From the NCBI RefSeq assembly GCF_000024725.1, contig NC_013960.1, positions 828,261 to 892,260 on the forward strand: 64,000 bases of DNA, in the 5' to 3' direction. The notes under the pieces were generated by a model. That model was not told the DNA's origin, searched no databases, and worked only from the letters and a program-made list of their open reading frames with translations. A program made the translations under genes and the position numbers. This document shows positions 2,951 to 26,578 of the stretch, piece after piece (the first letter of the stretch is position 1; each line of letters begins with the position of its first letter). The stretch is from Nitrosococcus halophilus Nc 4 (lineage in GTDB: Bacteria > Pseudomonadota > Gammaproteobacteria > Nitrosococcales > Nitrosococcaceae).

Positions 2951-2959
2951 GTACATTCC

Positions 2960-4474: not shown

Positions 4475-4516
4475 GCGGGTGATCATGGTCCATAGTCCAT
4501 TGAAGCAGGTGGCTGA

Positions 4517-5618: not shown

Positions 5619-5701
5619 AAATTTATGAACAGAGCGTGGGATATATAATCTGAATAGCCTGCGGAGTTTTAAAGTTCAAAGCGACAATGAGGAATATCAT
5701 T

Positions 5702-5902
5702 ATGGCTCATATCGTCATTAAGGATCTCCCGGAAAGTGTAGAGCTTGATCAGAAGGCAATGACTGCGGTAGTAGGCGGTGGTACCCGATTTCGATTCAAT
5801 CCCCAGCAGAGCCAGCCTAGCAGCATTTCGGAACGTCTTGGTTTTAACTTAACCAACTCATTGGCGGCCAGAAGGGCCTTCGCTTCTGGGCGGAAAGCCT
5901 GA
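5702..5902 (+). CDS. double-glycine leader peptide, candidate C39 exporter substrate
   Basis: A 66-residue peptide of unrecognised family. The ATG at 5702 is chosen over the one at 5687 because GAGGA lies 8 bases upstream of it. Residues 1-26 look like a double-glycine leader: hydrophobic residues at -4 (Val), -7 (Met) and -12 (Leu) before Gly25-Gly26, with a third Gly at 27. This is the pattern cleaved by C39 peptidases of bacteriocin-type ABC exporters, and an exporter with an intact C39 domain is encoded at 16979-20029. The remaining 40 residues are basic and rich in Arg, Ser, Gln and Asn, contain no Cys, and have a possible amphipathic stretch (about 47-66). No RiPP modification enzyme is visible nearby. 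A microcin-like or signalling/biofilm peptide is possible; the function is unknown. Confidence 0.75.
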   Translation: MAHIVIKDLPESVELDQKAMTAVVGGGTRFRFNPQQSQPSSISERLGFNLTNSLAARRAFASGRKA

Positions 5903-5951: not shown

Positions 5952-7484
5952 TTAGCGGTGGGGACCGTTGTGCTGAACGGGTCGAATGATGGTGGCCTCC
6001 TCGTCATCGTCATCCTGGGGAGGGGCGTTGTCGGAAGATGGTGCCGTTGGCTGAGGGGAGGTCCTGTCATCTAAGTCAATGAGTTCGGTGCGATCATCCG
6101 AGTGGTCTGACTGGATGAGCATGGTATCCGCCATATCGGTACGATGGGGCAGGATAAACCTGAATTCGTATTTGGCGAATCGAATTCGATCCCCATCGTG
6201 CAACGCCCTTTCTCCCGTGATCTTTTCATCGTTGACAAAGGTGCCGTTGATACTGCCCCGGTCGCTTATCCAGTAAGCGTTATCCCGGTATTGAATAAGG
6301 GCGTGGTCCCGACTGATCACATCATCCTGAATGCAAATGGTGGCTGTATCTTTGGAGTTTTCTCCAGGTGCTCTGCTAATCCAAGCAAGTTTGCCGGTAA
6401 TATCGTAGTGGGAGGGGCGGGTCAGACCTTCGAGCTGCGCAGGGGGAATGTATTTCCTGGAGTCGTTGCCCGCTGGGGCGAAAGGAGCGGTAGTTTGCCG
6501 GGAGCGTTTGAGCAAAGCTGTTACGATGAAAATGGCGACCAGCATCAGACCAGCGATGGCGGCTATCCATTTCCACTCCGCCTTTAACCGGGTCACATAG
6601 GGCTGCAACCACGGAAAATCCCCCAGGGACGGAGAGGTACCCTCTTCAGCGTCTTGCTGGGGGGGAGAGGGAAGCTGGTTTTCAGCACCCAACGGCGCTT
6701 GGGGGCTTTCTGTAGATTCAGGGACAGGGGGCTCTACCTTTTTTAGTTTTGGAATATCAATGGCAGGCGCTGCTGGGGCTGTACTGGTAGGGGTGATGAC
6801 CTTTCTAATTCGGTTGAATGCGGATTGAAGGTCAACGGCTTGAGGGGCCCGATAATAGGTTCCCCCCGTGGTATGGGCTAAGATCTGGAGGAGATGGAAA
6901 TCAGCCGCCTCAGTAAATGCGATTCCAAATACCTTAATGCCTGCCTCTGCGGCTTCATGGGCTAAATATTCCTGCATCCATCTTGAGAAATCACGGTCCC
7001 GTTTTTCATCACCGGTCTCGATGGGACCATTGGTCAGCAAGATAATGGCTTTTTCAGCCTCAGGACGGCCAAAATTTTTAAGCTCGTAGAGTGCCCGTTC
7101 CATTCCGGCGGCACTATTTCTAAAGCGGCCGGTATAGGTGAGTTTATCCAGATTAGTGACCAGGGCATCCCGTGTTTTCTGGGAAACAGGGACTAAGGGC
7201 ATCGCGACAGAAGTTCCCCCATCAAAAAGGATGATGGCGATTTGAGAATCGCCTCTTAGCCCATTGATGAAATTAAGGACGAATTTTTGGGTAAGAAATT
7301 CAGGGTCATTTTCCTGCATGCTTTGGGAATTTTCCAGGAGCAGGATAATATCTGTTTTTTCGATTGCGGCCGAGGCAGGGGGGCTGCTAGCCCAAAGCAA
7401 AAAAGTAAGAATAAATACTGAGGTATTCACTAATCTGGCCATTTTTCCGTTACCTTGCATTATACTAGCTAGGCATTTTGCCAT
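5952..7484 (-). CDS. exported VWA domain - TM - cytoplasmic FHA protein
   Basis: A 510-residue (or 496-residue) membrane protein of unknown function. It starts at 7484, with GGGGAA 7 bases upstream, or at the ATG at 7442. A signal sequence (about residues 17-40) is followed by a von Willebrand A domain (about 44-230), a Pro/Glu-rich linker, a TM segment (about 305-330) and a C-terminal FHA domain with SRDH and SINGTFVN motifs (about 355-450). The tail is acidic and Thr/Asp-rich. The VWA metal site is altered: ENSQS at 51-55 replaces DxSxS, and LLTNG replaces LLTDG. The expected topology is VWA in the periplasm and the phosphothreonine-binding FHA in the cytoplasm. P. aeruginosa PpkA joins kinase and VWA in one chain; here they are separate, with the kinase 1 kb away. 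It converges on the peptide gene. Confidence 0.85.
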   Translation of the reverse strand: MAKCLASIMQGNGKMARLVNTSVFILTFLLWASSPPASAAIEKTDIILLLENSQSMQENDPEFLTQKFVLNFINGLRGDSQIAIILFDGGTSVAMPLVPVSQKTRDALVTNLDKLTYTGRFRNSAAGMERALYELKNFGRPEAEKAIILLTNGPIETGDEKRDRDFSRWMQEYLAHEAAEAGIKVFGIAFTEAADFHLLQILAHTTGGTYYRAPQAVDLQSAFNRIRKVITPTSTAPAAPAIDIPKLKKVEPPVPESTESPQAPLGAENQLPSPPQQDAEEGTSPSLGDFPWLQPYVTRLKAEWKWIAAIAGLMLVAIFIVTALLKRSRQTTAPFAPAGNDSRKYIPPAQLEGLTRPSHYDITGKLAWISRAPGENSKDTATICIQDDVISRDHALIQYRDNAYWISDRGSINGTFVNDEKITGERALHDGDRIRFAKYEFRFILPHRTDMADTMLIQSDHSDDRTELIDLDDRTSPQPTAPSSDNAPPQDDDDEEATIIRPVQHNGPHR

Positions 7485-8506: not shown

Positions 8507-9796
8507 ATGGAATCTTATTCGATGAGCATCTCCGAGGAGCAAGCGAAAGAAGTCTCTTCCCTGAAAATTCCTGGTTATAGGATCCAGAGGATGATTGGTC
8601 AGGGGGGGATGGCGAAGGTTTATCTTGCTATCCAGGAGTCCCTGGAGCGAAAGATTGCCCTTAAGATCATGACGCCTCCCCTTGATATCGACCATTCATT
8701 GTGTGAGCGGTTCTTAAAGGAGGGGAAGATTGTCGCCCAATTAAGCCATCCGAGTATCATCACCGTGTATGACGTCGGTTGTTTTGGTAACCATTACTAT
8801 ATGGCTATGGAGTATCTTGGCGGAGCCAATCTTAAGCAACGTATCCAGCAGCAAGCCCCTGTGGTCTGCCCTTTGAAGATTATCCGCCAAGTTGCCAGTG
8901 CCTTGGGTTATGCCCATGCTCATGGATTTGTTCACCGGGATGTCAAGCCGGCCAATATCCTCTTTAAGGAAGATGGCACTGCAGTTCTGACTGATTTCGG
9001 TATCGCTAAACCACTGACCGCCCACACTCAGCTGACTGCGGTGGGTTTCTGTGTTGGAACACCCGAATACATGAGCCCGGAGCAAGCGACGGGCAAAAAG
9101 CTGGATGGACGTTCCGATCTTTACAGCCTAGGAGTGGTGTTCTACGAGATGCTGACGGGCCAGAAACCTTTTATAGGAGATGATGCGATTGCTACGATTT
9201 TGATGCATGCGCAAAGCCCTATCCCCAGTTTACCTTCCCAGTTTGCCATCTATCAGCCCCTTGTAGAGCATTTGTTGGCTAAAGATCCCCATGACCGATT
9301 TGAGGATGCGGAGGCATTAATCGCCTTCATTGATCATTTGTCTGGCCCTTCCGAGAAGGAACTACCTCAAAAAACCGGGACTTCACGCTGGTCCCCCACC
9401 CAAGTAATGCCGGGAGGGACTCGGGTATTGGTTGAGCCTAGTTCGGAGAAGAAATCGTCAACTTACAGGGCTAGGCGCTGGGCGATGGGGATCGGGTTGT
9501 TGGCTTTAGTCTTTTTGGGGATTTACCTTTTTCTTTCTCCCTCCCTGATAGGGCCTCAATCCAACGAACCTCTAAAGCAGGTGGAAGTATTTCCTAAAAA
9601 ATCTCAAGATCAGGAAAGAGTCGAGCACCTGCTTAATGTTGCTGAAGTCCACGCGGCAGTGGGGCGATTAACGGAACCTCCGGGCAGCAATGCCTACGAA
9701 GCTTACAAAATGGTGCTAGAAATTGATCCAGATAATGAACAGGCCCAAAAGGGGCTCCGGAAAATTGAAAATCTGAAGTCACAAAAACATGAATAG
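8507..9796 (+). CDS. membrane Ser/Thr protein kinase (Hanks type)
   Basis: A cytoplasmic Ser/Thr kinase anchored by one TM segment. The kinase domain spans about residues 24-280: glycine loop GQGGMAKV (31-38), Lys53 in ALKIM, catalytic HRDVK (143-147), DFG (163-165) and GTPEYMSPEQ activation-segment end. A TM helix lies at about 324-345. The short external tail (about 80 residues) has a TPR-like helix with 'YEAYKMVLEIDPDNEQAQKG'. The start could be 8507 or the ATG at 8522 (MSISEEQ); neither has an ideal ribosome site. With the PP2C at 14919 and the FHA proteins around it, it forms a complete write-erase-read set for Thr phosphorylation. Kinase targets are not shown by the sequence. Confidence 0.93.
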   Translation: MESYSMSISEEQAKEVSSLKIPGYRIQRMIGQGGMAKVYLAIQESLERKIALKIMTPPLDIDHSLCERFLKEGKIVAQLSHPSIITVYDVGCFGNHYYMAMEYLGGANLKQRIQQQAPVVCPLKIIRQVASALGYAHAHGFVHRDVKPANILFKEDGTAVLTDFGIAKPLTAHTQLTAVGFCVGTPEYMSPEQATGKKLDGRSDLYSLGVVFYEMLTGQKPFIGDDAIATILMHAQSPIPSLPSQFAIYQPLVEHLLAKDPHDRFEDAEALIAFIDHLSGPSEKELPQKTGTSRWSPTQVMPGGTRVLVEPSSEKKSSTYRARRWAMGIGLLALVFLGIYLFLSPSLIGPQSNEPLKQVEVFPKKSQDQERVEHLLNVAEVHAAVGRLTEPPGSNAYEAYKMVLEIDPDNEQAQKGLRKIENLKSQKHE

Positions 9797-10142: not shown

Positions 10143-12812
10143 GTGCTAAGCGTATTTCATTGCAGAAAAATTTCGTTATTGGTGGCGATGGCGCCGAGAC
10201 TTATTGCCTTTTCTTCAAAGGGATTACGCCCGCCGGTTTTAACGTTGATCGTGGCCTTAGGGGTGTTCCTGGGAGGATGTGCCGCAGGCTCGGCATCGGT
10301 ACAGGAGACAAAGGCTAACGCTGGTAACGCCGAGGAATTGTTGGTCGTTGACTGTTTGCTTCCCGGACAGGTCAGAAAACTCGGACGGCAGTTTACTTAT
10401 CTGACGGCCCGTCGGCCGATCAAAACCACCATCATAGATTGTGAAATCAGGGGTGGGGAGTATGTGGCCTATGACCGGGCAAATTATGCCACGGCCTTGA
10501 AAATCTGGCTTCCCAAGGCCCAAGAGGGTGATCCCGCGGCCCAAACTTATGTTGGTGAGATTTATGAAAAAGGGTTGGGCGTAAAGGCGGACTATGAGTT
10601 GGCTTTCCGCTGGTACCAAAAGGCTGCTGCCCAAGGTTACTCCCGAGCCCAGATCAATCTGGGTTATCTCTATGAGGCGGGTCTTGGGGTCCCGCGGGAC
10701 CTTACCACTGCCATGAATTGGTATCGGAGAGCCTCCGGGCTGACGGGGGGGGAGTTAGAGTTCGTTTCATCAATTGAAGCAGCGCAGCGTCAGGCAGTGA
10801 AAGAGGAAGCCGTAAGGCTGAAGGAAAATGTTGCCGAGTTGCAGGACCGGCTGCGCGAAGCCAGGGAAATCCTGGAGCGTCGTCAAGCGGAGTTGCAAAG
10901 AGCCGAGCAAGAACGAGAGCTCTTATTAAAGCAGCTTGAGGAAGAGATCTTATTGAAGCAAAAGCAGCTTGAAGAGCAAGGCCGTCTGCTTCCAACTCCC
11001 TCAGCGGAAAAAGCAAAGGACACACTAGATAAGGAAACCCGTGCCAAATTACAGGCTCAGTTACAGGAAGCACGACAAGAGCAACAGCGTTTAATTGAGC
11101 AGTTAGCGCAGCAGCAACTGGAGACAGCTGATTTGCGCCAGGTCTTGGAACAGACCCAGGAAAAGCTTGGGAAACGACGAGCTGAATTCCAAGCAGCGCA
11201 AACTCAACGTGAGCGGATGAAGGCGGAACTTGAACGCCTCGAGGCGGCAGCCGCTGGGAAAGATAAGGCGGCAGAGGTGGAGCGCCTCAAGGCAAAATTA
11301 AATCAGCTTCAAAGCGTGGTTAACACTCAAAAAGACAATATCACTTCATTGGAATCAACCTTCCAAGAGCAGCGTTCGAAGTTAGCAGAAAAATGGCGCC
11401 AGGAACAGCATAACACCCAGCAGCTACAACTTGCCCTGAATGAACGCAACGAAGAAATCAGGATATTGCAGAGTCAACTGGGTGATTTAGTGGCAGGCCA
11501 AGAAGATGCTTACGCAGAAATCAAGGCCCTGGAAGAAGAGTTATCCCGTCGGGATGCTAGAATTGAGCAGCAAAAGCGTGAGCTTGAGCAGCAGCAGCAA
11601 AAAATTGAGCAACTGATGGCGGAGGCGACGGTTCCGGAAGCCTCAGCAATGGCTGCCGTCGTAGAGACATCAGCGGTAGGGCCTTCTATCGAGATCATTG
11701 AACCCCCCTTGTCGGCTACCCGCGGCAATTTAAGTGCCCTCTTGCGTACTGCCGTATCGGAGATAGAACTTGTTGGCAAGGTGACGCCAAGAGATGATCT
11801 TTTATCTTTTCGCATTAATGACCAGGCCCAGGAGTTGCGGAAAAACGGATTATTCAAGCTGCATTTGCCCATACAACGACCAGAAACACCGGTAAGCATT
11901 GTCGCCATCGATAGTGGCGGAAACCGTACCGCTTTGGATTTCTCCATTGTTCCGGCAACCATTAAAGCCCAAAGGGCGGAGAGGGAAAAGTCCTCTGGGT
12001 TGGGATCGAAAGAGCTAAAAGCTATTGATTTTGGCAACTACTATGCCCTGATCATTGGTAATAACCACTACCAGCATCTTCCCGATCTGAAGGCGGCCCG
12101 TGAGGATGCTCAGGTTGTGGCCGATATACTGCAGTCAAAGTATGGTTTCAAAACAAAGGTGTTACTGGACGCAGATCGCTACGCCATTCTTTCCGCCCTG
12201 AACGAATTGCGGGAGAAACTGACGGAACAGGATAACTTCCTTCTCTACTATGCCGGGCATGGTCATTTGGAGAGTGCCAATTTACGAGGTTATTGGCTTC
12301 CCGTTGATTCTGAGTCGGATAGTAGCGCCAACTGGATCTCTAATGTCGCTATTACCGATATTCTCAATGTGATGGCTGCGAAGCATATATTGGTGGTTGC
12401 GGACTCCTGCTATTCAGGAGCGCTAACTCGCTCATCCCTTGCCCGCTTACAGACTGGAATGTCAGGAGAAACTAAAATAAAGTGGTTTAAAGTGATGGCC
12501 AAGACTAAAGCGCGCATTGCCTTGACATCAGGCGGCCTTAAACCGGTTCTGGATGCAGGCGCGGGGGATCACTCTATTTTTGCAAAGGCTTTTTTGGAAG
12601 TGCTCCAGGAGAATGACGATATCCTTGAAGGTTTTCGCTTATACAATGAGATACAAAAGCGTGTCGCCCGGGCGGCGGATGCCTTGGGGGTGGAGCAGGA
12701 TCCCCAGTATGTACCGATAAAATATGCCGGACACGAGGCGGGAGAATTTTTCTTCTTTCCGGCGCGGTTAGCTGCTGAGAACAAGCCTCGGTTGTTTGCC
12801 TATGCCCAATAG
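10143..12812 (+). CDS. lipoprotein with Sel1 repeats, coiled coil and caspase-like (C14) domain
   Basis: An 889-residue envelope protein. The signal peptide ends in the lipobox FLGGC (Cys46). Two or three Sel1-like repeats occupy about residues 110-200. A long Glu/Gln/Lys-rich coiled coil follows (about 220-500). A beta-rich segment (about 515-620) precedes a C14 caspase/metacaspase-like domain (about 630-880) with catalytic His706 in YYAGHG and Cys756 in DSCYSG. The start is GTG at 10143; an ATG at 10188 also leaves an intact signal. Caspase-like proteases usually cleave after Arg/Lys or Asp, but the specificity cannot be read here. A sigma-54-like promoter upstream suggests co-regulation with the exporter. 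A role in processing or quality control of exported material is speculation. Confidence 0.88.
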   Translation: MLSVFHCRKISLLVAMAPRLIAFSSKGLRPPVLTLIVALGVFLGGCAAGSASVQETKANAGNAEELLVVDCLLPGQVRKLGRQFTYLTARRPIKTTIIDCEIRGGEYVAYDRANYATALKIWLPKAQEGDPAAQTYVGEIYEKGLGVKADYELAFRWYQKAAAQGYSRAQINLGYLYEAGLGVPRDLTTAMNWYRRASGLTGGELEFVSSIEAAQRQAVKEEAVRLKENVAELQDRLREAREILERRQAELQRAEQERELLLKQLEEEILLKQKQLEEQGRLLPTPSAEKAKDTLDKETRAKLQAQLQEARQEQQRLIEQLAQQQLETADLRQVLEQTQEKLGKRRAEFQAAQTQRERMKAELERLEAAAAGKDKAAEVERLKAKLNQLQSVVNTQKDNITSLESTFQEQRSKLAEKWRQEQHNTQQLQLALNERNEEIRILQSQLGDLVAGQEDAYAEIKALEEELSRRDARIEQQKRELEQQQQKIEQLMAEATVPEASAMAAVVETSAVGPSIEIIEPPLSATRGNLSALLRTAVSEIELVGKVTPRDDLLSFRINDQAQELRKNGLFKLHLPIQRPETPVSIVAIDSGGNRTALDFSIVPATIKAQRAEREKSSGLGSKELKAIDFGNYYALIIGNNHYQHLPDLKAAREDAQVVADILQSKYGFKTKVLLDADRYAILSALNELREKLTEQDNFLLYYAGHGHLESANLRGYWLPVDSESDSSANWISNVAITDILNVMAAKHILVVADSCYSGALTRSSLARLQTGMSGETKIKWFKVMAKTKARIALTSGGLKPVLDAGAGDHSIFAKAFLEVLQENDDILEGFRLYNEIQKRVARAADALGVEQDPQYVPIKYAGHEAGEFFFFPARLAAENKPRLFAYAQ

Positions 12813-14342: not shown

Positions 14343-14918
14343 TGTTCCCCCCTTATTGTTATCGTTGATGGCTGGAATTGCTATTGATCAACAGCCACCC
14401 CCTCTAGGTGAAGTCAGCACCTACCTATAGAATAGCTGGTATTTTGGAACGAGCCAGTGGTATAAAAAGTCTCTTACCTTTCCTCTTTATCATAGGTGAG
14501 AAAAGGCATTTTAAGAATACTACCGGCTCCTTTTTGATGCCATGAGATTTATTTTTATCCTTTAGAAAAACCAAAATACTCAGCATTCGCCATCATAGAG
14601 CGTTTCTCCCATGGCGACAATTAGCAATGGGGTTTTTAAGATCCTGTCTTTTTATTGAGATTTTGTGAATCACAGAGTTCAAAGCGCTATTAGAATGAGT
14701 TTTGATTTTTTTGGCATTAATTATGCATAAAAACAGGGGTGTCCCATCAGTCGCTATAGACAGGTGAATAGGCATTGAAGCCTCTTTTGCTTCCAGCAAG
14801 ATCAGACCTTTTAGCTCCTAATGGGATTTAGATTCATTCGTTTGATTTTTAATCATCTATTATTTAATTTTAAATTCAATAAACATTTCAGTACCTTCTC
14901 AGATAGGTGAAGTTTTCT
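14343..14918 (+). other. long intergenic control region
   Basis: A 576-base AT-rich divergent region between the barrel gene and the PP2C gene. It contains the sigma-54-like site at 14711-14728, an inverted repeat TAGGTG-N7-CACCTA near 14405-14425, and an inverted repeat CGCCAT-N17-ATGGCG near 14587-14617 upstream of that promoter. The minus-strand 68-codon frame here has no ribosome site or recognisable product and is not called. Confidence 0.5.
14711..14728 (+). promoter_or_regulatory. sigma-54 promoter candidate for the PP2C gene
   Basis: TTGG-N9-TGCAT with GG at 14713-14714 and GC at 14725-14726, ten bases apart. The -24 element TTGGCAT and -12 element ATGCAT agree well with the consensus TGGCAC-N5-TTGC. 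It lies about 190 bases upstream of the start codon and has the same form as the sites at 10021 and 26579. Confidence 0.6.
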
Positions 14919-15698
14919 ATGAGCAATAAAGGCGCACTCCATTGGCGCTCAGCTGCCCGAACCCACAAGGGTAAAATCCGCAAAATTAATGAGGATTCAT
15001 TTTTGGAGCAAAGCGACTATGGTATTTGGGCCGTTGCAGACGGGATGGGGGGGCATGCCGTTGGCGATGTCGCCAGTCAGATGGTAGTGAGTACCTTGGC
15101 TGAGATGCCGTACCAGTCCAATTTAGAAGCACTCGAGGCAGAAGTTCGACGTCGTTTACAAGAGGTTAATCACCGTTTACGAGAAGAAGCCGCTGCTCGC
15201 CAGGAACGAGTCATCGGTAGCACAGTCGTTGTATTGCTTGGCTACGGCCAGCGCTGTATCTATCTGTGGGCGGGAGATAGCCGGGTTTATCTTTTTCGCA
15301 ATGGAGGGTTGAGGCAACTATCCCATGATCATAGCCATGTGGAAGCACTTATTAGCCATGGCTTGCTTGACCGGAGGGAAGCCCAAAATCATCCCTCGGC
15401 AGGGGCGATTACCCGGGCGGTTGGTGCGGTTGATACCCTGGAGTTGGACAGGGGGGCCTTAGAAGTCAAAAGTGGTGATGTTTTTCTGCTATGTAGTGAT
15501 GGTCTCCATAATGAGGTGAGCGATGAAGATATTGGGGGAATATTGAGAGAGGAAAATTACCAGAAAAGTTCTGAAATGTTAGTGGATCTCGCCCTTAAGC
15601 GAGGGGGAAGAGATAATGTGACTGTGGTGGTGGTACTTGCCGAAGATCAAATGGATGGAACTAGAACCCTCTTGAATCCATTAATAGCAAACCCATAA
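14919..15698 (+). CDS. PP2C-family Ser/Thr protein phosphatase
   Basis: A metal-dependent phosphatase expected to remove phosphate from Ser/Thr of proteins modified by the kinase at 8507. It is 259 residues long from the ATG at 14919, which has GGTGA 8 bases upstream; a GTG at 14907 is less likely. PPM motifs are complete: RKINEDSF, VADGMGGH (metal Asp), LCSDGLHNEV (metal Asp) and GGRDNVTVVVV (metal Asp). No membrane segment is present, so it is cytoplasmic. It resembles PppA/Stp-type phosphatases in size. The gene converges on the sigma-54 activator gene with 21 bases between stops. Confidence 0.92.
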   Translation: MSNKGALHWRSAARTHKGKIRKINEDSFLEQSDYGIWAVADGMGGHAVGDVASQMVVSTLAEMPYQSNLEALEAEVRRRLQEVNHRLREEAAARQERVIGSTVVVLLGYGQRCIYLWAGDSRVYLFRNGGLRQLSHDHSHVEALISHGLLDRREAQNHPSAGAITRAVGAVDTLELDRGALEVKSGDVFLLCSDGLHNEVSDEDIGGILREENYQKSSEMLVDLALKRGGRDNVTVVVVLAEDQMDGTRTLLNPLIANP

Positions 15699-15719: not shown

Positions 15720-16982
15720 TTACGCTTGGTTTTTGGAACGGAAATCTTTGGCACTTAACCCATGTTTTTTTAGAAGGGTCTGTAAATGGGAGCGATTCAT
15801 TCCAATTCGTTTGGCAAGCTCTGTCACCTTACCGTTCATCTCCTGAAGACTCCTTTCAAGGAAAAGTTTTTCAGCTTCATCGCTGGCTGCCTTTTTGACC
15901 TCGCTTAGAGAGCTTCCTGTCCCTAGCTTGTCAATAGCCACCGGTTGGGAGGATGCGCTTTGGGGGCGAATATAATCGGGTAAATGCTCATAATCGGCGG
16001 TTTCACCGGCTAGGCAAGAGAGGCGGAAGATGATATTGCGCAGTTCTCGAACATTGCCAGGGTAGCTGTAGTTTGATAAAAATGTTTTGAGTCGCGACGC
16101 CATCTTGATAGGCTGGCGGTTAAGTTTCTCCGCAGCCTCATCAATAAAATACTCAAAGAGTAATGCAATCTCATCTTGACGTTCTCGCAAAGGGGGCAGG
16201 GTAACATGGATGACACTGAGTCGATAAAATAAATCCTCACGGAATTTTCCCTGCTGACTCATCTCCCGTAGATTTCGGTTGGTGGCTGCTACGATTCGAG
16301 CGTCTACCTGGATGATTTCGTCAGAACCGACCCGTTGGACCTCATTGGATTGTAGTACCCGAAGCAGTTTGACCTGACCATGAAGGGGTAGCTCACCTAT
16401 CTCATCTAGAAAGATAGTTCCCCCGTCGGCACTCTCGAATTTTCCTTTACGGTCAGAGGTTGCCCCCGTAAAAGCGCCTTTTTTATGACCAAACAGTTCA
16501 GATTCGAGCAACTCTTGTGGGATTGCGCCGCAGTTGACAGAAATATAGGGTTTATCTGCCCTGCTTCCATTGGCATGGATAACTTTCGCCAACAACTCCT
16601 TCCCGGTACCACTCTCTCCCTCAATGAGTACGGGGAGATCCGTCGGCGCTGCTTTTTCAGCAATTTCCAGTGTTTCCAAGAGCTTTGGACTTTCACCAAA
16701 TACACCTTCAAAGACAAAGCTGCGATCTATTAAGGCTTGCCGCCGTTCTTTAGTCGGTAGGTTTACCCGCGCTTCAGCAGTGGCCGAGGCAGTCACGAAA
16801 CGTTCTTTATGTGACAGTCGCATGACTTCATCGCGCAAAGTATTACATTGGCTGAGGAGTTTTTGTATCTCGGGACGCTCTAACTTAGTCGCCCATCGCA
16901 GCGTGGAACGCAGAATTTCGATCTTCTCGATGAGACCACCATAGGAAATAGCCGAACTACCCTTGAGATTGTATAGCTTCAT
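15720..16982 (-). CDS. sigma-54-dependent transcriptional activator, no classical sensor domain
   Basis: An AAA+ enhancer-binding protein that remodels sigma-54 RNA polymerase. The 420 residues comprise about 90 N-terminal residues without receiver, GAF or FHA signatures but with helical character, a central AAA+ domain with Walker A GESGTGKE (122-129), the sigma-54 contact loop GAFTGA (169-174) and Walker B TIFLDE, and a C-terminal Fis-type helix-turn-helix (VTELAKRIGMNRSHLQTLLKK). Its start codon overlaps the stop of the C39 exporter gene (ATGA), so it is translationally coupled as the last gene of the export operon. This suggests feedback control of the operon or of the 10021/14711/26579 promoters. 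Confidence 0.93.
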   Translation of the reverse strand: MKLYNLKGSSAISYGGLIEKIEILRSTLRWATKLERPEIQKLLSQCNTLRDEVMRLSHKERFVTASATAEARVNLPTKERRQALIDRSFVFEGVFGESPKLLETLEIAEKAAPTDLPVLIEGESGTGKELLAKVIHANGSRADKPYISVNCGAIPQELLESELFGHKKGAFTGATSDRKGKFESADGGTIFLDEIGELPLHGQVKLLRVLQSNEVQRVGSDEIIQVDARIVAATNRNLREMSQQGKFREDLFYRLSVIHVTLPPLRERQDEIALLFEYFIDEAAEKLNRQPIKMASRLKTFLSNYSYPGNVRELRNIIFRLSCLAGETADYEHLPDYIRPQSASSQPVAIDKLGTGSSLSEVKKAASDEAEKLFLERSLQEMNGKVTELAKRIGMNRSHLQTLLKKHGLSAKDFRSKNQA

Positions 16983-19900
16983 GCTCCGCCTGACATTTGT
17001 TTCTGAACGAGTTCGTAATACATCCCTTTCCTGTTCACCAGTTCCTGATGTTGTCCTTGTTCGACAATAGCACCATTATAGAGGACCAAGATCTTATCGG
17101 CACGCATGATGGTGCTAAGCCGGTGAGCAATCACCACTGCCGTCCTCCCCCTAAGGATCTCTTGCATACTTTTTAAAATATTACTTTCGGATTGGGTATC
17201 TAACGCCGAGGTTGCCTCGTCAAAAATGAGCAAACGAGGATCATGGTAGAGGGCTCTGGCAATGCAGATACGCTGAATTTGCCCCCCAGAGAGGCCTACC
17301 CCCCGTTCCCCCACGATCTGTTCATATCCCAAGGGCATTTTGCTGATAAACCCATGGGCATCGGCCATTTTGGCCACTTCTTCGATCAGCCGGCGATCCG
17401 GGTTTTCGTCACCCGCTGAAATATTCTCGGCAATGGTGCCAGAAAACAGCAGATTGTTCTGCATCACATAACCGATTTGGGCTCGATAAGTCTCTTTATC
17501 GACTACCGCCATATCATAGTCGTCGACAAAAATATGGCCCTCTGTGGGGCTATAGAAGCCAACTAAAATCTTGGCAAGCGTTGTCTTCCCTGAGCCGCTA
17601 TGGCCGACAATGGCGATGAGTTCCCCCGCCTTGATTTCAAAGTTGAGGTTTTCAAGCACATAGGGTGTTTCATTACCCCCATAACGGAAATAAACATTTT
17701 CAAACCGGATATTGCCTTCTAAATCTGGAAGCACCACCCGTGAAGGTAAGTCTTGGGGCTTTTGTTCGGGCTCCATATCCAGGATGTCCCCCAGTCGTTC
17801 CATCGCCACACCGGCCTCATGAAGCCGATCCCAGAGCCCCACAAGCCCAAGCAATGGGGACATGACACTGCCCATCAAGGCATTGAAGGCAATCAATTGA
17901 CCGATGGTCAGTTCTTGGGCCAGGACAAGACTGGCGCCTACCCATAAAATAACTACTGTTGTGGCAGCATTTAAAAGTTGGCTGGCAAGGCCTACTAGAA
18001 TTTGAAACTGTTGGGCCCGATACTGGACCTCAAGGGAATGCGCATATTTCTTTTCCCATTTTAGGCGCATCGGCCGCTCAATTCCCATACCCTTGATGGT
18101 TTCTGCTCCCCCAATCGTTTCCATGAGAATTGCTTCCGACTCGGTAGAGGTAGCAAAGGCTTCACGGGCGTATCTTTTTAGTTTTGGCGTTACCGAAACG
18201 GTTAAAATCAATAATGGGATGACAAATCCAATAAGGATTAAGGTCATCTTGACATTATAGAAAAAGAGGACAGTGAAATAGATAAAAACCATCAATAGAT
18301 TAAGAACAGTGGTGATGGTCGATTCGGTTAAAAATGCCCGTATAGTTTGGTTCTCTTGGAAGCGTGCAAAGATATCACCGGTTTTACGTTTAAAGAAAAA
18401 AGAGATGGGCAGAGAAAGGGTATGCTTAAAAAATTCTGACATCATCGCAAAGTCCATTTTGCGTATCATAAAATTAGATAAAAAAGCACGCAGCATTGAT
18501 GTCAGCTGCATAAAAATATTGGTGATGACTAAACCTACAATGAGTAAATGGAGGAGATCAATGTTTTGATGTACCACTACCCGATCTAAAATATTTTGAA
18601 TAATAATGGGGGGAGCGACACCAAGGATTTGGATAATGAAGGTGGCCAAAAAAATATGGGCCAGCATTTTCTTATGGGGTTTGAGGTATCTAATGAAGCG
18701 AACCCAGGGTGAGCGAGTAGCTGCAGCCTGCACCAAGTCTGTGCCTGGCGTAAATAGTAGGCAGGTGCCACTCCAACCCTTTTCAAATTCCTCTACTGTG
18801 AATTTTCGGAAACCTACGGCAGGATCAGCAACCCAAACATGCTCATCGGAAATACCGTAGACAACGAAATAGTGATAACCTTCCCAATGGGCAATAAATG
18901 GCAGCTCAAAACCCAAGAGAGACTGGTAAGTACATTGCACTCCGCGAGTAGTAAAGCCAAGTGCTTCACCGACTCGAGCTATACTATCTAAAGTGGCGCC
19001 TTCAGTGGTGACGTTCGCCATCTCACGTAGTTTCCCCATTGTGATAGGGATGCCATAGTGTTTACAAATCATTGATAGGCAAGCTGCCCCGCAGTCCATC
19101 TCTTCGGCTTGTTCAACCAAGGGAAAACGCCGGATAATTTTTTCGCCCCGTCCTGGTTTTGAATGTAAATCAAGCATTAAAGGGCGCTTCCGGCGCTCGG
19201 CGAGTTTTCTTTGGCGGTGTAATTCCCGTTCGGTAAATTGAATCCGCTCCTCAAGTATTTCTCGGAGTTTGGGATTGCGCTCCAACATAAAGTGGGCAGC
19301 TTGTTCTGGGATGACTAATAAAGTCGTATCAGTATCAGCAACTACGGAAACGGGTTGTTCTTGTCGCAACAGGCAAGCTTTCTCGCCAAAAATATCTCCT
19401 TGGCGTAAGGTGGCAAGATGATACTCGGTACCATGTTCTTCCCGAAGGATACTTACTTCACCTTGGCGTACAACGTATAGTCGTCGATCTTTGCGGGAGT
19501 CTTGTTCGAGAATAATTTGCCCAGGCTCTACCCGTTTGATACCAACGCTGCGTACTAAATTCTCAATCTCGCTCTGATTAACCTTCTTCCGCAGGTCAAA
19601 AAGTTGGGAGATAAACCCTCCTGCGGAACGTATCGCCACATAACTGGCTATAAATTTTTGCGTATCCTTGCTCTTTTCTAAGAGGGGTAAGAATGCTTCA
19701 CGGGGTATAAATAAAATCTCTGTCTTTGCAGAGGCGCGCACCGAGGACTCATGCCGATATTCCCGAATAATCGCAATCTCGCCGAAAACATCCCCTTGTT
19801 TTCTCAGCCCCATGCTAATTTCCTTTCCTAACTGTTCGGTAAAAATGCGGACCATCCCGGACTTGACAATATAGAGACCACTGCTGGTGTCACCGACCTT

Positions 19901-20029
19901 GCAGACAGTATCGCCAAGATCAAAGAATTTTGTTTCGGCTTGCGCCGCTAATTCTTCTAGCTCCGAGCGGCTAAAGACAGAGAGAATTTCGACAGAAGAA
20001 AGGAACTCAACGAGGGCTTCGTTACTCAC
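16979..20029 (-). CDS. C39-peptidase ABC exporter with two cNMP-binding domains
   Basis: A 1016-residue fused inner-membrane exporter of the PCAT/HlyB type. Two cyclic-nucleotide-binding folds (about 15-130 and 150-265; GDVFGEIAII and GDIFGEKACL) precede a C39 peptidase (about 300-428) with Gln307, catalytic Cys313 in DCGAAC, His386 and Asp402 all present, so the peptidase should be active, unlike the degenerate domain of HlyB. Six TM helices (about 455-740) and a nucleotide-binding domain follow with Walker A GHSGSGKTT, signature LSGGQ and Walker B LLIFDEATS. The family cleaves double-glycine leaders while exporting the peptide. The cNMP domains lack an obvious proof of ligand binding. Similar cNMP-C39-ABC architectures are known in cyanobacterial exporters. 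The downstream activator gene overlaps its stop. Confidence 0.94.
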   Translation of the reverse strand: MSNEALVEFLSSVEILSVFSRSELEELAAQAETKFFDLGDTVCKVGDTSSGLYIVKSGMVRIFTEQLGKEISMGLRKQGDVFGEIAIIREYRHESSVRASAKTEILFIPREAFLPLLEKSKDTQKFIASYVAIRSAGGFISQLFDLRKKVNQSEIENLVRSVGIKRVEPGQIILEQDSRKDRRLYVVRQGEVSILREEHGTEYHLATLRQGDIFGEKACLLRQEQPVSVVADTDTTLLVIPEQAAHFMLERNPKLREILEERIQFTERELHRQRKLAERRKRPLMLDLHSKPGRGEKIIRRFPLVEQAEEMDCGAACLSMICKHYGIPITMGKLREMANVTTEGATLDSIARVGEALGFTTRGVQCTYQSLLGFELPFIAHWEGYHYFVVYGISDEHVWVADPAVGFRKFTVEEFEKGWSGTCLLFTPGTDLVQAAATRSPWVRFIRYLKPHKKMLAHIFLATFIIQILGVAPPIIIQNILDRVVVHQNIDLLHLLIVGLVITNIFMQLTSMLRAFLSNFMIRKMDFAMMSEFFKHTLSLPISFFFKRKTGDIFARFQENQTIRAFLTESTITTVLNLLMVFIYFTVLFFYNVKMTLILIGFVIPLLILTVSVTPKLKRYAREAFATSTESEAILMETIGGAETIKGMGIERPMRLKWEKKYAHSLEVQYRAQQFQILVGLASQLLNAATTVVILWVGASLVLAQELTIGQLIAFNALMGSVMSPLLGLVGLWDRLHEAGVAMERLGDILDMEPEQKPQDLPSRVVLPDLEGNIRFENVYFRYGGNETPYVLENLNFEIKAGELIAIVGHSGSGKTTLAKILVGFYSPTEGHIFVDDYDMAVVDKETYRAQIGYVMQNNLLFSGTIAENISAGDENPDRRLIEEVAKMADAHGFISKMPLGYEQIVGERGVGLSGGQIQRICIARALYHDPRLLIFDEATSALDTQSESNILKSMQEILRGRTAVVIAHRLSTIMRADKILVLYNGAIVEQGQHQELVNRKGMYYELVQKQMSGGA

Positions 20030-20057: not shown

Positions 20058-20810
20058 TTATAATGCTTCTATTCGGTGTTCTTGAGCCTGAGTAGACAAC
20101 CAATCATCCACGACTAAACGACGTACCTCGGACTTCGTTTCTTCATCAAGTTTAGCTTCGTGTTTGGCGGTCACCTGAAAAATTTCAAAAAAAGAGCCAT
20201 CGCTGGATGCAAAGGGGCCAAGAGGTTCGCCAACAGGAGCGTTGAAAACTTTACTTTCAATATCCGTTTGCAATGAACCTCGCAGCACTTTGCCAACCAT
20301 GCCATGGTGGTCCCTGGTATCTGCGATAGAGTGCTCTTTTGCTAATTCTGGGAAAAGTTCCGGCTCCTCTTCGAGAAGGGAAAAAATCTCTTTTGCTTTA
20401 CCCTCAGAGTCAAGGACAATATGACCCAGTTCAATACTTTCAAATTTTGGCGAGTGCATCCGGAAGTATTCTTCTATGGCATCGTCACTACAGACTTTAG
20501 CCATGATCTTTTCTTGATAGAGGATCTCAATAATGAAGTTTTCAAAGTCATCTAAAGAAACGCCAATAGCATCAAGAAATTGGTTCATGTCTTTAGCCCG
20601 GTGCAGACCGTAGACACGCCGGAATTGATCGGCCCGCTCTTGGATCTCATCAGTCGTTAAGGAAACTCCTTGCCGTTTAGCGGCGTGGACCTTGAGCTTA
20701 TCTCTAACCATTTCCTCAATAAGCTCTTCAAATCGTCCAGTGAGTTTGAGTGTTTTTAGAAAAGCATCCGCAGTGATGACTTCGTCATCAATTCTTACGA
20801 TATCTTTCAT
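20058..20810 (-). CDS. parvulin-like (PpiC/SurA-type) protein without signal peptide
   Basis: A 250-residue putative peptidyl-prolyl isomerase or chaperone. The N-terminal about 110 residues are helical, like the SurA/trigger-type chaperone arm (QERADQFRRVYGLHRAKDMNQFL). The parvulin domain lies at about 125-215 (IELGHIVLDSEGKAKEIF ... GPFASSDGSFFEIFQV), but the usual GGDLG motif reads GMVGKV, so catalysis is uncertain. There is no signal peptide or TM, so it should act in the cytoplasm, where it could hold the cargo peptide unfolded for the exporter. It lies between the HlyD and ABC genes in the same operon, 28 bases ahead of the ABC gene. Confidence 0.85.
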   Translation of the reverse strand: MKDIVRIDDEVITADAFLKTLKLTGRFEELIEEMVRDKLKVHAAKRQGVSLTTDEIQERADQFRRVYGLHRAKDMNQFLDAIGVSLDDFENFIIEILYQEKIMAKVCSDDAIEEYFRMHSPKFESIELGHIVLDSEGKAKEIFSLLEEEPELFPELAKEHSIADTRDHHGMVGKVLRGSLQTDIESKVFNAPVGEPLGPFASSDGSFFEIFQVTAKHEAKLDEETKSEVRRLVVDDWLSTQAQEHRIEAL

Positions 20811-20891: not shown

Positions 20892-22268
20892 TTAGCCCGC
20901 CACCTTCCGGAAAGGATCTAATGCTAAATCAATCAAACGTCGCTCCCGGACCACGATCTCTGCGGTGGCGGTCATTCCATACCGTAGGGGATAGTCAACA
21001 TCCTCGATAGAGAAATAAGTCTTCTCTAACCCTATGTGGCCTGTATACACGAGATTTTTATCTTGGGAGGAGGGTTTTGCTGCTGGCGAAATATACTCTA
21101 GTGTTCCATCAATCGCACCATAGCGTTGATAGGGGAAAGCGCTGAATTTGGCTTTCACAGGTAGTCCTTCTTCAAGAAACCCCCGATCTTGTTCTGGAAT
21201 CTCAATTTTCAGGATGGCTCTCGACTCTTCAGGGGCAATGGCGCCTAGGGGGGTATTGGCTTGGACTTTGTCTCCGATTTGTGTGTAGGTGACTTCAGTG
21301 ATGACACCGGAAACCGGCGCCAGAATACGTAGAAAATTATCTTCGTCAATGTTTTCAAATTTAATCCGCGAGGCTGCTTCTGCAGCCAAGCGAGCGCCGC
21401 GAAGCTTTATGAGTAGTCGGTTTTCCTCTCGCTTGATATCATCTAGTAGGGCCTCATATTCGATTCGAAGTTTAATGAGTTCTTGATCGCTTCCTTCTAA
21501 TTCCGATTTGGCTTGTGAATACTCATTGCTCAACTCATAATCTAGTTTTCCAAACTGCGCTTTAGCGACCCGATAATTGGTTGCAGCGGAAAGATAATCA
21601 CTTTTCTTTTCTTCGACCTGATTTTTTGAAACGCCTCCCCCCCCGGGATTATTGAATAGTCGCTTATATTTTTCCCATTCCCGTTTGGCGATTTCCAGTT
21701 GCCTTGCTGCTTTATCAAGTGTTCCTCGCGCTTCTTCTAGTCTTGCTTTTTGGGCCTCAGCCAATTTCCTTAGGCCTTCCGATACCCGTTTTTGATGGCG
21801 TTCTTCAGCAATAGCAATTTGTTTCTTAAGGGCTTCGGCTTGACGCATGCGTAGATTTTTTCGTTCGGGCCATGCCTTGTATTCCCGCTCTATTTCTGCA
21901 AGTTTGAGTTCCGCATCCAGGGCGTTTGTCGCGGCCTCAATGGCTCCCCGTGCGTTAAGGCGGGCGAGGACATCGCCTTTGAGTACGGGTTGTCCCTCAG
22001 CCATATAAATATCAACGATTTCACCACCAATAGGAGCATAAAATCGGCGTGCTTCAGAGTCGGGACTTAGGGAACCATGGGTAGTGACGATCACATCTGC
22101 TCGCCCCACAAAAGACCAGATGATACCGGCAAGCAGCAGTGCGACCAAAACACCGATGGTGGCTCCCATGAGACGCGAAGGCTCAGAGGTCAGTATGGCA
22201 ATACCCTCGGTACTATGTTCTCCTAGAGCCTCAGGAAAGCTTTTATAGCTGCGTTCTTTTGAACTCAT
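20892..22268 (-). CDS. HlyD-family type I secretion adaptor
   Basis: The periplasmic adaptor of the C39 exporter. The ATG at 22268 is preferred because AGAGGCG lies just upstream; the longer frame begins with TTG. The protein (about 458 residues) has one TM near its N-terminus (MGATIGVLVALLLAGIIW), a lipoyl half (APIGGEIVDIYMAEGQPVLKGD), an exceptionally long coiled-coil hairpin (about 100-310), the second lipoyl half (APVSGVITEVTYTQIGD) and a C-terminal beta domain ending in FRKVAG. It should connect the ABC exporter to the NodT/TolC-type channel encoded at the head of the operon. Confidence 0.93.
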   Translation of the reverse strand: MSSKERSYKSFPEALGEHSTEGIAILTSEPSRLMGATIGVLVALLLAGIIWSFVGRADVIVTTHGSLSPDSEARRFYAPIGGEIVDIYMAEGQPVLKGDVLARLNARGAIEAATNALDAELKLAEIEREYKAWPERKNLRMRQAEALKKQIAIAEERHQKRVSEGLRKLAEAQKARLEEARGTLDKAARQLEIAKREWEKYKRLFNNPGGGGVSKNQVEEKKSDYLSAATNYRVAKAQFGKLDYELSNEYSQAKSELEGSDQELIKLRIEYEALLDDIKREENRLLIKLRGARLAAEAASRIKFENIDEDNFLRILAPVSGVITEVTYTQIGDKVQANTPLGAIAPEESRAILKIEIPEQDRGFLEEGLPVKAKFSAFPYQRYGAIDGTLEYISPAAKPSSQDKNLVYTGHIGLEKTYFSIEDVDYPLRYGMTATAEIVVRERRLIDLALDPFRKVAG

Positions 22269-22342
22269 AGTCGCCTCTGATGGTAGCTTTATGTTCTCAA
22301 TGAAGGGTTGCAACGGTAATGATAGCTTTGTGGCGCATTATC

Positions 22343-24841
22343 CTATTTATTACTATAAGAAGGTTCCACAATAAGCTTGAGTTTGGCCTCTAGCAAGGCA
22401 TGGTCTAATACCATGCTTAATTCCCTTAATGATTGCCGTTGTAATCTAATTTCTCGGATAATTTTCTGGTAGAGGGCTTTGTCCTCAGCAGGGAAATCAA
22501 GCTGTATTAGGTTATAAGTATGCATGACTTCGGCTAAATGGTTATGAGCCTGGGTTAACAGGCGAGACCGGATTCTGAAAGCATCCGAGATAGTAGTTTC
22601 GAGTCGATGAATGCCCTGAATTCTCCCTTCCTCCAGGTAAGTTGACCACTGCTTTTGGGCTTTGGCTATTGTTTGTTGCGCTTTAGCCAGAGCTTTCTCC
22701 TTATGGTATTGAAAGTCATCGGCAAGAAGACGTGAAAAATAGACGTCTTCCTCAGGATCCAGAGAATTATAGAAGGTAAATAAACGCTCTCTATAATTAT
22801 CGCTCTCCTGTGCCTCTTTTAAGGCAAGAAAATTACGAAGGATTTGTGTATTCCGTTGTAGCTTTTGGGCGGCTAATTCTGCCCATTCCCCTTGATTTAA
22901 GTTTTTTAGCAATGATAATGACTGCCGTATTTGCCCTGATTGCCAAGCTTCAGACGCCTGTTGAAACTGTTCATTGATTTTGGGAGGTGGCATGACGGCA
23001 GCTTGCAACTTAGCTAACTTTTCTTTGAATGGGGGGGTAGTGAGGGCTAGCATTGTCATCTTTTTGGAAAGCCGGATCGGGTTGGTGTTGCCGATGTCCG
23101 CTTGGATCATGAGGTACTTTTCTAGATCAGATTGCAGGTTTTCAATACCGGCGATGTGAGGATATTTATCAGAAAACTCCCTCAAGATGGATTTAAGCTC
23201 TTTTGCCTTATTAGAATCAAGCTTTTCTTTTATGGTGGCCTTTAGTTTCTCGAGTGCGGTAAGATAAGTTGCTTTCTCGTTTTGTAGGGTTCGTAGAGAG
23301 CTAAAGGTTTGGTTGTATAGGGATTCAAATTCAGGAACTAGAGTGAGAATATGGGTCATTAAACGACGGTTGCTTGTCCGCTCGGCATCCCACCGCTCAA
23401 TTAAGGCATTGATTGAGTCTTCATGTTTATAAATGATAATCGGTGTATCGAGGCCGCCACGTTTATAAATAAATTCTTCCATATCGACGATCCAGTCTAA
23501 TAGCTTCAGCATAGATAGGAGATCGCTATTAAATTGGTTTTGATACTGAGCCTGCTTTAATATTTCATTGGCATTTGCAAAGGTATGCTTGTCAAGTTGC
23601 GCTATCCAGTCAGGCATTATGGACTTTAGCAGGCTTTCTGTTGCCAGATTTTTGATTTCCTTATTCTCTGGATGTTTTTCTAAGTATTCGTTGGCTAGAG
23701 AGACCGCTTTTCCATAGTGGCCCTGCTCGACCAGTTCTTCAATCTTTTGTTGCTGGTCACTGGTCAGGTAAGTGCCCAATGCCAGAATAAGCACCCCAGT
23801 GCCGGTTGCTAAAATGATGCGAAATCGCTTTTGTTTTTTGGGGTCTCTTTCTGAAAACTCATTATGTATTTCTGAAAGAAAGATTTTTGCCTTCCTAAAC
23901 CATCGTGGAGTAGCGCTTTTTGACGGCTGGGATTGGGCAGAAGGTTGGGGAGACTGGGCACTAGCAGAACTGTTCTCTTCACCCTTTTCAGGTTGATTGC
24001 TAGCTTTTTCCTCGTCAATGCAAAAAATATCTAAAAAAGAAGTTGCGGAGGCTACAAAGGTTGTTTTTGCTGATTCTGGATGGACCTGATCGATCTTGTT
24101 TGTAGAATATGAGATTGGATCGGATGTTTTGAGATCCTGATCCTCAGCGCCTTCCAGGGCCACAGTGTAAACAAAATGATTTCCACCAAAAGCGATTGTA
24201 TCGCCATTTTTAAGGCGTTTGGCATGTTCATCTAGGCGGTTGCCTGAGACAAAGGTTCCGTTAGTGCTTCCTAGGTCTTCAACGTAGAGATCACCCTCTT
24301 TTAAAAAGAAATGGGCGTGACGCCGAGAGAGGAAATTCACTTCTTGTGGATATTGATCCTTGTATCGCAGAAAAGCCTCATTGGTTTTGCCAACCAAAAA
24401 TGGCAACTGGGAAACCACAATGGGATCAAGGCTAATATCTGTCCGTTGTGGCACAAGAGTGAGGCGAATCGAAGGGGTTGTGGATTCGGGTGCAGCATGG
24501 GGAGAGTCATATTGGACTATATCCGCCTGATAAGTCAGTATTCCTGCAAAACATACTTGGTCACCAGCATGAAGTTCTATGGGCGTGTTGCAAATAGGGT
24601 TACCATTGATAGTGGTCCCATTTTGAGATCCAAGATCAGCAAGATAAACCCTATTATTTTCTTTAAAAATTCGCGCATGGCGTCGGGAAAGCGCGGTAAC
24701 CAAATCCCGTGGGTAGGATGAAAAAGGCGCCTCATTACGGCCAATAGGAAACAAGGATTCTTCCACAAGAATTTTGCCTAGCTCGGGATGAGACAAAGGC
24801 TTGAGTGCAATATTTAATTTTTTTTCGGCGACAGCATACAT
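22343..24841 (-). CDS. double-FHA, single-TM protein with large periplasmic helical domain
   Basis: An 832-residue inner-membrane protein, product not recognised beyond its domains. Two FHA domains stand at the N-terminus: FHA1 about 8-108 (GRN at 34-36, SRRH at 52-55, NG at 74-75) and FHA2 about 125-228 (SRRH at 172-175, NG at 194-195; the GR arginine is a Lys here). A Ser/Gln/Pro linker follows, then one TM at about 341-359, then about 470 residues of predicted helices with TPR-like pairs (EELVEQGHYGKAVSLANEYLEKHPENKEI). FHA domains bind phosphothreonine, so the cytoplasmic half may read the kinase signal and the outer half may touch the adaptor. It lies between the outer-membrane channel gene and the HlyD gene, so it is likely part of the secretion apparatus. 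Confidence 0.87.
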   Translation of the reverse strand: MYAVAEKKLNIALKPLSHPELGKILVEESLFPIGRNEAPFSSYPRDLVTALSRRHARIFKENNRVYLADLGSQNGTTINGNPICNTPIELHAGDQVCFAGILTYQADIVQYDSPHAAPESTTPSIRLTLVPQRTDISLDPIVVSQLPFLVGKTNEAFLRYKDQYPQEVNFLSRRHAHFFLKEGDLYVEDLGSTNGTFVSGNRLDEHAKRLKNGDTIAFGGNHFVYTVALEGAEDQDLKTSDPISYSTNKIDQVHPESAKTTFVASATSFLDIFCIDEEKASNQPEKGEENSSASAQSPQPSAQSQPSKSATPRWFRKAKIFLSEIHNEFSERDPKKQKRFRIILATGTGVLILALGTYLTSDQQQKIEELVEQGHYGKAVSLANEYLEKHPENKEIKNLATESLLKSIMPDWIAQLDKHTFANANEILKQAQYQNQFNSDLLSMLKLLDWIVDMEEFIYKRGGLDTPIIIYKHEDSINALIERWDAERTSNRRLMTHILTLVPEFESLYNQTFSSLRTLQNEKATYLTALEKLKATIKEKLDSNKAKELKSILREFSDKYPHIAGIENLQSDLEKYLMIQADIGNTNPIRLSKKMTMLALTTPPFKEKLAKLQAAVMPPPKINEQFQQASEAWQSGQIRQSLSLLKNLNQGEWAELAAQKLQRNTQILRNFLALKEAQESDNYRERLFTFYNSLDPEEDVYFSRLLADDFQYHKEKALAKAQQTIAKAQKQWSTYLEEGRIQGIHRLETTISDAFRIRSRLLTQAHNHLAEVMHTYNLIQLDFPAEDKALYQKIIREIRLQRQSLRELSMVLDHALLEAKLKLIVEPSYSNK

Positions 24842-26367: not shown

Positions 26368-26578
26368 AGGGACATCCCCCTGTCTAGGGGGGGTATCCTT
26401 GCGACTAAGGCAGCCATATCGCCACCGTAAGTTAAAAGTATAATACATCAGCTAATCAAGGAATTAACTTAAACAAAAAGTAAAATTTTTAGCTAGCCGT
26501 ACTGCTTATGGTAGTTGACCGCTTGCTTTGTTTGAGACTCATAACATCATTGGGCCTGTAACTTGCTCTTAAGTACAT

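Follow-up and report, generated by a model that had tools for sequence, protein, structure and literature searches.

Introduction

Class II microcins with CvaB-type export combine a double-glycine leader with a C39 peptidase exporter, HlyD and TolC. Surveys of double-glycine peptides in Gram-negative bacteria exist, and they may list some of the genes described here. A second kind of system is the EbfG/PteB system of Synechococcus elongatus, in which several small double-glycine leader proteins (EbfG1-4) go with a C39 peptidase transporter. These peptides are reported to be needed for biofilm; EbfG1-3 are reported to form amyloid fibrils, and EbfG4 to occur both at the cell surface and within the matrix (PMC4997328, PMC9981879). 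A third relevant protein is HetC of Nostoc PCC 7120. Its report states that there is no membrane fusion gene near hetC, calls the HetC substrate unknown, and describes binding of ppGpp to the cyclic-nucleotide-binding (cNMP) domain (PMC10986499).

This analysis concerns a small open reading frame of Nitrosococcus halophilus Nc 4. It lies in a stretch of 64,000 nucleotides, which is called the window below. The original prediction was that the encoded peptide is an orphan double-glycine precursor and the likely cargo of a C39 exporter encoded nearby. Leader conservation, gene neighborhood and co-occurrence, all of them computational evidence, make it very likely that the peptide is a cargo of this exporter, cleaved after Gly26 and then exported. 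It would not be the sole cargo, as one exporter goes with 16 leader genes. One C39-ABC exporter would thus serve a dispersed family of precursors, of which the peptide in the window would be the single-copy, arginine-rich member. In the open-access titles and abstracts searched, no description of the gene cluster or the leader family was found.

The precursor and its leader family

The precursor gene occupies positions 5702..5902 on the plus strand and encodes 66 amino acids. Its ATG is at 5702-5704 and its stop codon at 5900-5902, and a ribosome-binding-like GAGGA is found upstream at 5689..5693 (plus strand). An alternative in-frame ATG at 5687 would give 71 amino acids. The start at 5702 is preferred because the ATG at 5687 overlaps the GAGGA stretch and because the leaders of relatives begin at the 5702 position. 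The leader consists of residues 1-26 (5702..5779, plus strand) and ends in Gly25-Gly26. V23, M20 and L15 are at -4, -7 and -12 as originally described, and the precursor contains no cysteine. Three consecutive glycines are present at the predicted cleavage region. The leader spacing in relatives points to a cut after Gly26, making GTRFRF the likelier mature start. The predicted mature peptide (5780..5899, plus strand) has 40 residues, from GTRFRF to GRKA. Its calculated pI is 12, its charge about +5.8, its average mass 4425.9 Da and its monoisotopic mass 4423.31 Da.

The peptide has no match above cut-off in Pfam, NCBIfam or PHROGs. TIGR04497 (GRASP_targ_2) scores 13.3 bits (E 0.062), short of its curated cut-off of 32 bits. 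When 17 family members were scanned in NCBIfam, the top match was TIGR04149 (E 0.0048), seen in 3 members. The AlphaFold model of the precursor is weak, with a mean pLDDT of 61 and values of 52-58 in the last 36 residues; it places helices at 10-25, 43-46 and 52-61. For an Asn/Gln-rich relative the confidence is even lower (mean pLDDT 51).

The peptide is not an orphan, since 15 further genes in the genome have the same leader. The genome searched consists of two contigs with a total of 4,145,260 bases, and the larger contig has 4,079,427. With the peptide itself as query, 11 further leader-like places are found (E up to 10). A leader profile gives 16 strong matches including the window gene, and two more at E above 1. 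The consensus is MxxIxIxDLxxxxxLDxxAMxxVxGG, and M1, D8, L9, L15, D16, G25 and G26 are invariant in the 22 aligned leaders. The same leader precedes differing cores among the 16 genes, so the conservation of leader but not core that was to be looked for in homologues is present. The profile also has 16 matches in the congener G003 and none in the congeners G001 and G002. Among 59 near genomes, only three have leader matches: N. halophilus itself (16), G003 (16) and G017, where the match is weak and has an internal stop. Neighbors of the 16 leader genes, inspected by eye over their first 90 residues, include no recognized modification enzymes.

The peptide is also recognized by a leader model made without its own class. 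Trained on 133 leaders from other species, with the class of the window peptide excluded, the model scores this peptide at 41.3 bits, the highest of 32 Nitrosococcus peptides. Those 133 leaders were themselves found with a model trained on Nitrosococcus, the one used below for the related loci; a reversed-sequence control and the co-occurrence counts guard against this circularity.

Three classes of cargo can be read from the peptides: Asn/Gln-rich, those with APWVYGWIxPY near the core start, and short Arg-rich peptides such as that in the window. The Arg-rich class, assigned by rule, is single-copy in all 14 genomes that have it under this rule, of which 12 are named genomes and two are Nitrosococcus. 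The list had 15 rows, one of which was misfiled (a truncated Asn/Gln-rich gene of the N. halophilus genome at 2060166) and was removed; 6 of the 112 rows of the 12 genomes were dropped for a leader E above 1e-3. In the stretches read, G231, Caballeronia SBC2 and Burkholderia stagnalis also have one Arg-rich peptide each. Nitrococcus has a second short basic peptide (L252), a borderline case that the rule files with other cargo. Between genera the Arg-rich core is poorly conserved apart from its charge, and the claim of common descent is therefore confined to the leader.

Some cargo loci seem to have been rearranged. In the region C2:2059999-2069102 (L014) of the N. halophilus genome, a truncated cargo gene is found close to transposase-like genes and to a promoter of the cargo type that lacks a cargo gene. 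At C2:1038570-1038800 (L012) the cargo core is a run of PGPTFP-like units, which are fewer in the G003 copy.

The exporter and its gene cluster

The exporter gene (16979..20029, minus strand) is an intact frame of 1016 amino acids, 11.1 kb from the end of the peptide gene, which bears out the claim of an intact C39 exporter in the same region. Pfam domains and alignments give it a HetC-like make-up, with cNMP-binding, C39, ABC membrane and ABC ATPase domains; the cNMP-binding domain is matched in two stretches. The C39 domain covers residues 302-429 (18743..19126, minus strand). An alignment of five sequences, including that of the window, shows Q307, C313, H386 and D402 to be invariant, and we take them to be the C39 catalytic residues. 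No NCBIfam model reaches its cut-off among the matches listed for the exporter (25 of 208). The top-scoring structure chains are ABCB-type pumps, matched by the ABC part alone.

Several genes accompany the exporter in the window and in related loci. Upstream of it on the minus strand are genes for a PpiC-type peptidyl-prolyl isomerase-like protein (20058..20810), an HlyD-type membrane fusion protein (20892..22313), a double-FHA protein (22343..24841) and a TolC-type outer-membrane channel (24883..26448). Downstream on the same strand is a sigma-54-dependent activator (15720..16982), whose start overlaps the end of the exporter gene, and next a PP2C phosphatase on the plus strand (14907..15698). 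All were assigned by Pfam domain matches. Across the 80 related loci described below, the activator and the PpiC-like protein occur in 79 each, HlyD, FHA and TolC in 69 each, and PP2C in 68. The order of these companions by median position is that of the window, where they span 26448 down to 14907.

Other neighbors in the window are rarely found at related loci, for which the flanks examined extended at most 10 kb. They include a Ser/Thr protein kinase (8507..9796, plus strand; 3 of 80 loci), a vWA plus FHA protein adjoining the peptide gene (5952..7484, minus strand; 0 of 80), a Sel1 repeat plus caspase-type protein (10143..12812, plus strand; 1 of 80), these three assigned with Pfam, and an autotransporter beta-domain protein inside the cluster (12921-14342, minus strand; 1 of 80). 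The vWA-FHA neighbor is the same in G003, where it is split in two frames, and is found near the like peptide of G231. The Sel1/caspase-type protein also adjoins the exporter operon of G202. Relatives of the autotransporter are present in the exporter locus L114 and beside a G202 cargo gene, on a contig differing from that of its exporter.

The gene content is consistent with an unmodified peptide, as originally proposed. A Pfam scan of 15 cluster and neighbor proteins recognized no RiPP-modifying enzyme. The block does contain the Ser/Thr kinase, an alpha/beta-hydrolase-like protein and the PpiC-like isomerase. The RND/TolC/MFP genes at 2-5602 were considered as partners of the peptide and rejected, since they match in only 0-2 of the 80 loci and since G003, although it retains both the peptide and the block on the opposite side of it, has a different gene upstream.

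Only one C39-ABC exporter was found in N. halophilus. A second C39 match in its genome is a small stand-alone protein at C2:147239 (L015, C2:147134-149594). By eye, it adjoins three small proteins that share an LTxxQMDxVTAG-like stretch after a signal-like start, and it looks like part of a separate small secreted-protein system.

Co-occurrence of leader and exporter

The leader genes are found where the exporter is found. Among four genomes of the genus, only N. halophilus and G003 have the full-length exporter. Matches in G001, G002, G004, G005 and G017 cover the ABC part only, at 28-32%. The wider class was sampled with 370 genomes, using the N-terminal 440 residues of the exporter as query and 61% or better as a close match. 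A close exporter is present in 4 of the 370 genomes, all four of which have leader genes, compared to 1 of the 366 others (Fisher p 4.8e-7 with the N. halophilus genome left out). Six further genomes of the class have a 28-31% exporter match and no leader gene. The exception is G239, which has leader-like peptides (C122:873-1338, L102) and no close exporter. Two of the exporter genomes, G392 and G202, have just two leader genes each, none of them Arg-rich, and two other genomes of the family of G231 have no leader gene.

The association extends to Betaproteobacteria and Gammaproteobacteria beyond this sample. In a collection of 84,980 species, a scan identified 277 relatives of the exporter; the best 80 loci were retained, with flanks of at most 10 kb. 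Their sources include Noviherbaspirillum, Paraburkholderia, Caballeronia, Aromatoleum, Thauera and Nitrococcus. With the Nitrosococcus leader model, 73 of these loci have leader peptides within about 10 kb of the exporter, 184 in total, compared to none in the reversed-sequence control. Four of the seven loci without a leader peptide are short (9.5-15.1 kb), and the genomes of the other three (L110, L119 and L137) hold 8, 14 and 7 leader genes elsewhere. When 12 exporter genomes were searched whole, each had 6-14 leader genes.

The G003 locus has interrupted frames. At C1:31945-50743 (L071, L072) the exporter frame has four stops, and the HlyD, FHA and vWA-FHA frames are also interrupted; 16 cargo leaders are kept. 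This may reflect an assembly or sequencing error, or decay.

Based on these patterns, we infer that the C39 domain recognizes the common leader and cuts after Gly26. The 40-residue product starting with GTRFRF would then be pumped out by the exporter together with HlyD and TolC, as in type I secretion.

Control of the cargo genes

Most cargo genes have a sigma-54 site upstream, and the Arg-rich genes have none at the distance counted. A -24/-12 site was called at a score of 10 or more of 12, and 3 of the 184 upstream stretches were dropped as shorter than 200 nt. Among the remaining 181 genes in the 80 loci, 129 have such a site upstream, compared to 5.25 expected from shuffles; among the 32 Nitrosococcus cargo genes, 20 do (0.75 expected). 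Among cargo genes that are first in a row and not Arg-rich, 68 of 75 have a site in the counted distance of 50-130 nt (about 60-125 nt upstream), while none of the 48 genes behind another cargo gene does. None of the 14 Arg-rich genes has a site at this distance. Counting only genes first in a row, and with the misfiled row at 2060166 added to the others, the numbers are 0 of 6 Arg-rich and 69 of 76 others (Fisher 4.9e-6). The Arg-rich gene of G434 has a score-10 site at 151 nt, outside the counted distance. The Nitrococcus L252 peptide has a score-11 site at 123 nt, and it is an exception if counted as Arg-rich. Upstream of the window gene a sigma-70 promoter scan found none; a TATAAT is present at 5644 but is not kept in G003, and it is not counted as a promoter here.

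A stricter sigma-54 pattern gives 10 sites in the whole N. halophilus genome and none in the backward control. Seven of the ten are 99-105 nt before cargo genes. Another is upstream of the PP2C gene (14711..14727, plus strand), suggesting that the phosphatase is under the same control as the cargo. A further site retains a promoter region of the cargo type, but the 1 kb that follows contains no cargo gene. The remaining site, at 643563, is unassigned. By eye, several Asn/Gln-rich cargo genes, for example that at C2 813070, have an inverted repeat CCGAAA...TTTCGG located after the sigma-54 site and before the start codon.

Expression of the cargo genes is probably driven by the activator, as indicated by gene linkage and promoter type: the activator gene is in the exporter operon, and the cargo promoters are of the sigma-54 type. 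The sister cargo, mostly Asn/Gln-rich, would be switched on in this way, while the Arg-rich gene, where it stands alone, would be expressed without a sigma-54 promoter.

This difference in control raises the possibility that the Arg-rich peptide is a secreted signal. It would be made without sigma-54, exported and sensed, and a kinase/phosphatase/FHA/sigma-54 circuit would then turn on the Asn/Gln-rich cargo. The single copy per genome, the lack of a sigma-54 site at 50-130 nt in all 14 genes when other cargo has one, and the presence of kinase, PP2C, FHA and activator genes in the same block are consistent with this idea. However, the gene sits behind another cargo gene in 8 of the 14 genomes (it is first in a row in the other 6) and may be co-transcribed there, and no receptor has been identified. 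A signal of this kind is therefore possible but doubtful.

Role of the exported peptide

The properties of the core weaken the case for an antibacterial peptide. A class II microcin-like or bacteriocin-like product, unmodified and killing competitors through its cationic core after export, would be in keeping with the double-glycine leader, the C39 exporter, the pI of 12 and the large differences in the core between genera. However, dN/dS against the G003 copy is 0.18 (leader 0.19, core 0.18); the core as well as the leader is under purifying selection, a result based on only 24 differences in 198 nt. The amphipathic moment of the core is low, at most 0.34 over 18-residue stretches, and this weak amphipathic character further weakens the antimicrobial reading. 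The peptide is also single-copy in 14 genomes, and no immunity-like small gene was recognized by eye beside the peptide gene, such genes being hard to recognize. An antibacterial function thus appears unlikely. It is very improbable that the leader merely resembles a C39 signal and that the protein remains intracellular, for instance to regulate the exporter: export of the peptide is itself deduced, but the leader is common to 15 other genes with differing cores, and it co-occurs with the exporter.

The most likely role, held less firmly than export, is one outside the cell together with the Asn/Gln-rich peptides. By analogy with EbfG, the Arg-rich peptide would be a cationic minor component, or a signal, of a peptide system at the surface or in the matrix. 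More broadly, the locus may represent a conserved proteobacterial secretion system unnamed in the literature searched. In it, a HetC-like exporter would go with HlyD, TolC, PpiC-like, FHA and PP2C proteins, its own sigma-54 activator would turn on scattered Asn/Gln-rich secreted peptides, and one Arg-rich peptide per genome, in this genome that of the window, would be made outside sigma-54 control and act as a signal or nucleating partner of an extracellular assembly. This picture is put forward tentatively, as a reasonable possibility.

Comparison with known systems

The class II microcins have the double-glycine leader and the C39 exporter with HlyD and TolC in common with this system. Here no immunity gene was recognized by eye, many paralogues are co-served by one exporter, and most of the cargo has sigma-54 control. 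Among structures of peptidase-containing transporters, exporter residues 300-1008 align with 4ry2, listed as an ABC-type bacteriocin transporter and presumably PCAT1, and residues 307-1009 align with ComA (8hf4). Neither alignment covers the roughly 300 N-terminal residues that contain the cNMP domains.

HetC has an N-terminal part of this kind as well. The likeness is one of domain make-up, an N-terminal cyclic-nucleotide-binding domain followed by a C39 peptidase and an ABC exporter (PMC10986499). Compared to HetC, the system described here has HlyD, TolC and a cargo family, and its cNMP model matches in two stretches. The substrate of HetC is an open question in that source (PMC10986499), while the exporter of like make-up described here is accompanied by a defined leader, a cargo set that can be counted and a promoter signature. 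The cargo is thus open to computational listing and to tests in ordinary soil bacteria, for instance Paraburkholderia.

The EbfG/PteB system resembles this one in having multiple double-glycine peptides and a C39 transporter, a likeness in the kinds of components. It differs in that the leader described here has a DL..LD..AM pattern of its own, that the cargo genes are dispersed and most of them follow sigma-54 sites, and that FHA, PpiC-like and sigma-54 activator genes are part of the exporter operon, which has PP2C as a neighbor. Should the cargo build a matrix in the way EbfG does, Beta- and Gammaproteobacteria would have a widespread surface system based on peptides. The analogy to EbfG and PteB drawn in the original prediction is a fair one for the process, but the domain make-up of the exporter resembles HetC. 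Overall, the nearest published process is EbfG/PteB, while the nearest exporter make-up is that of HetC.
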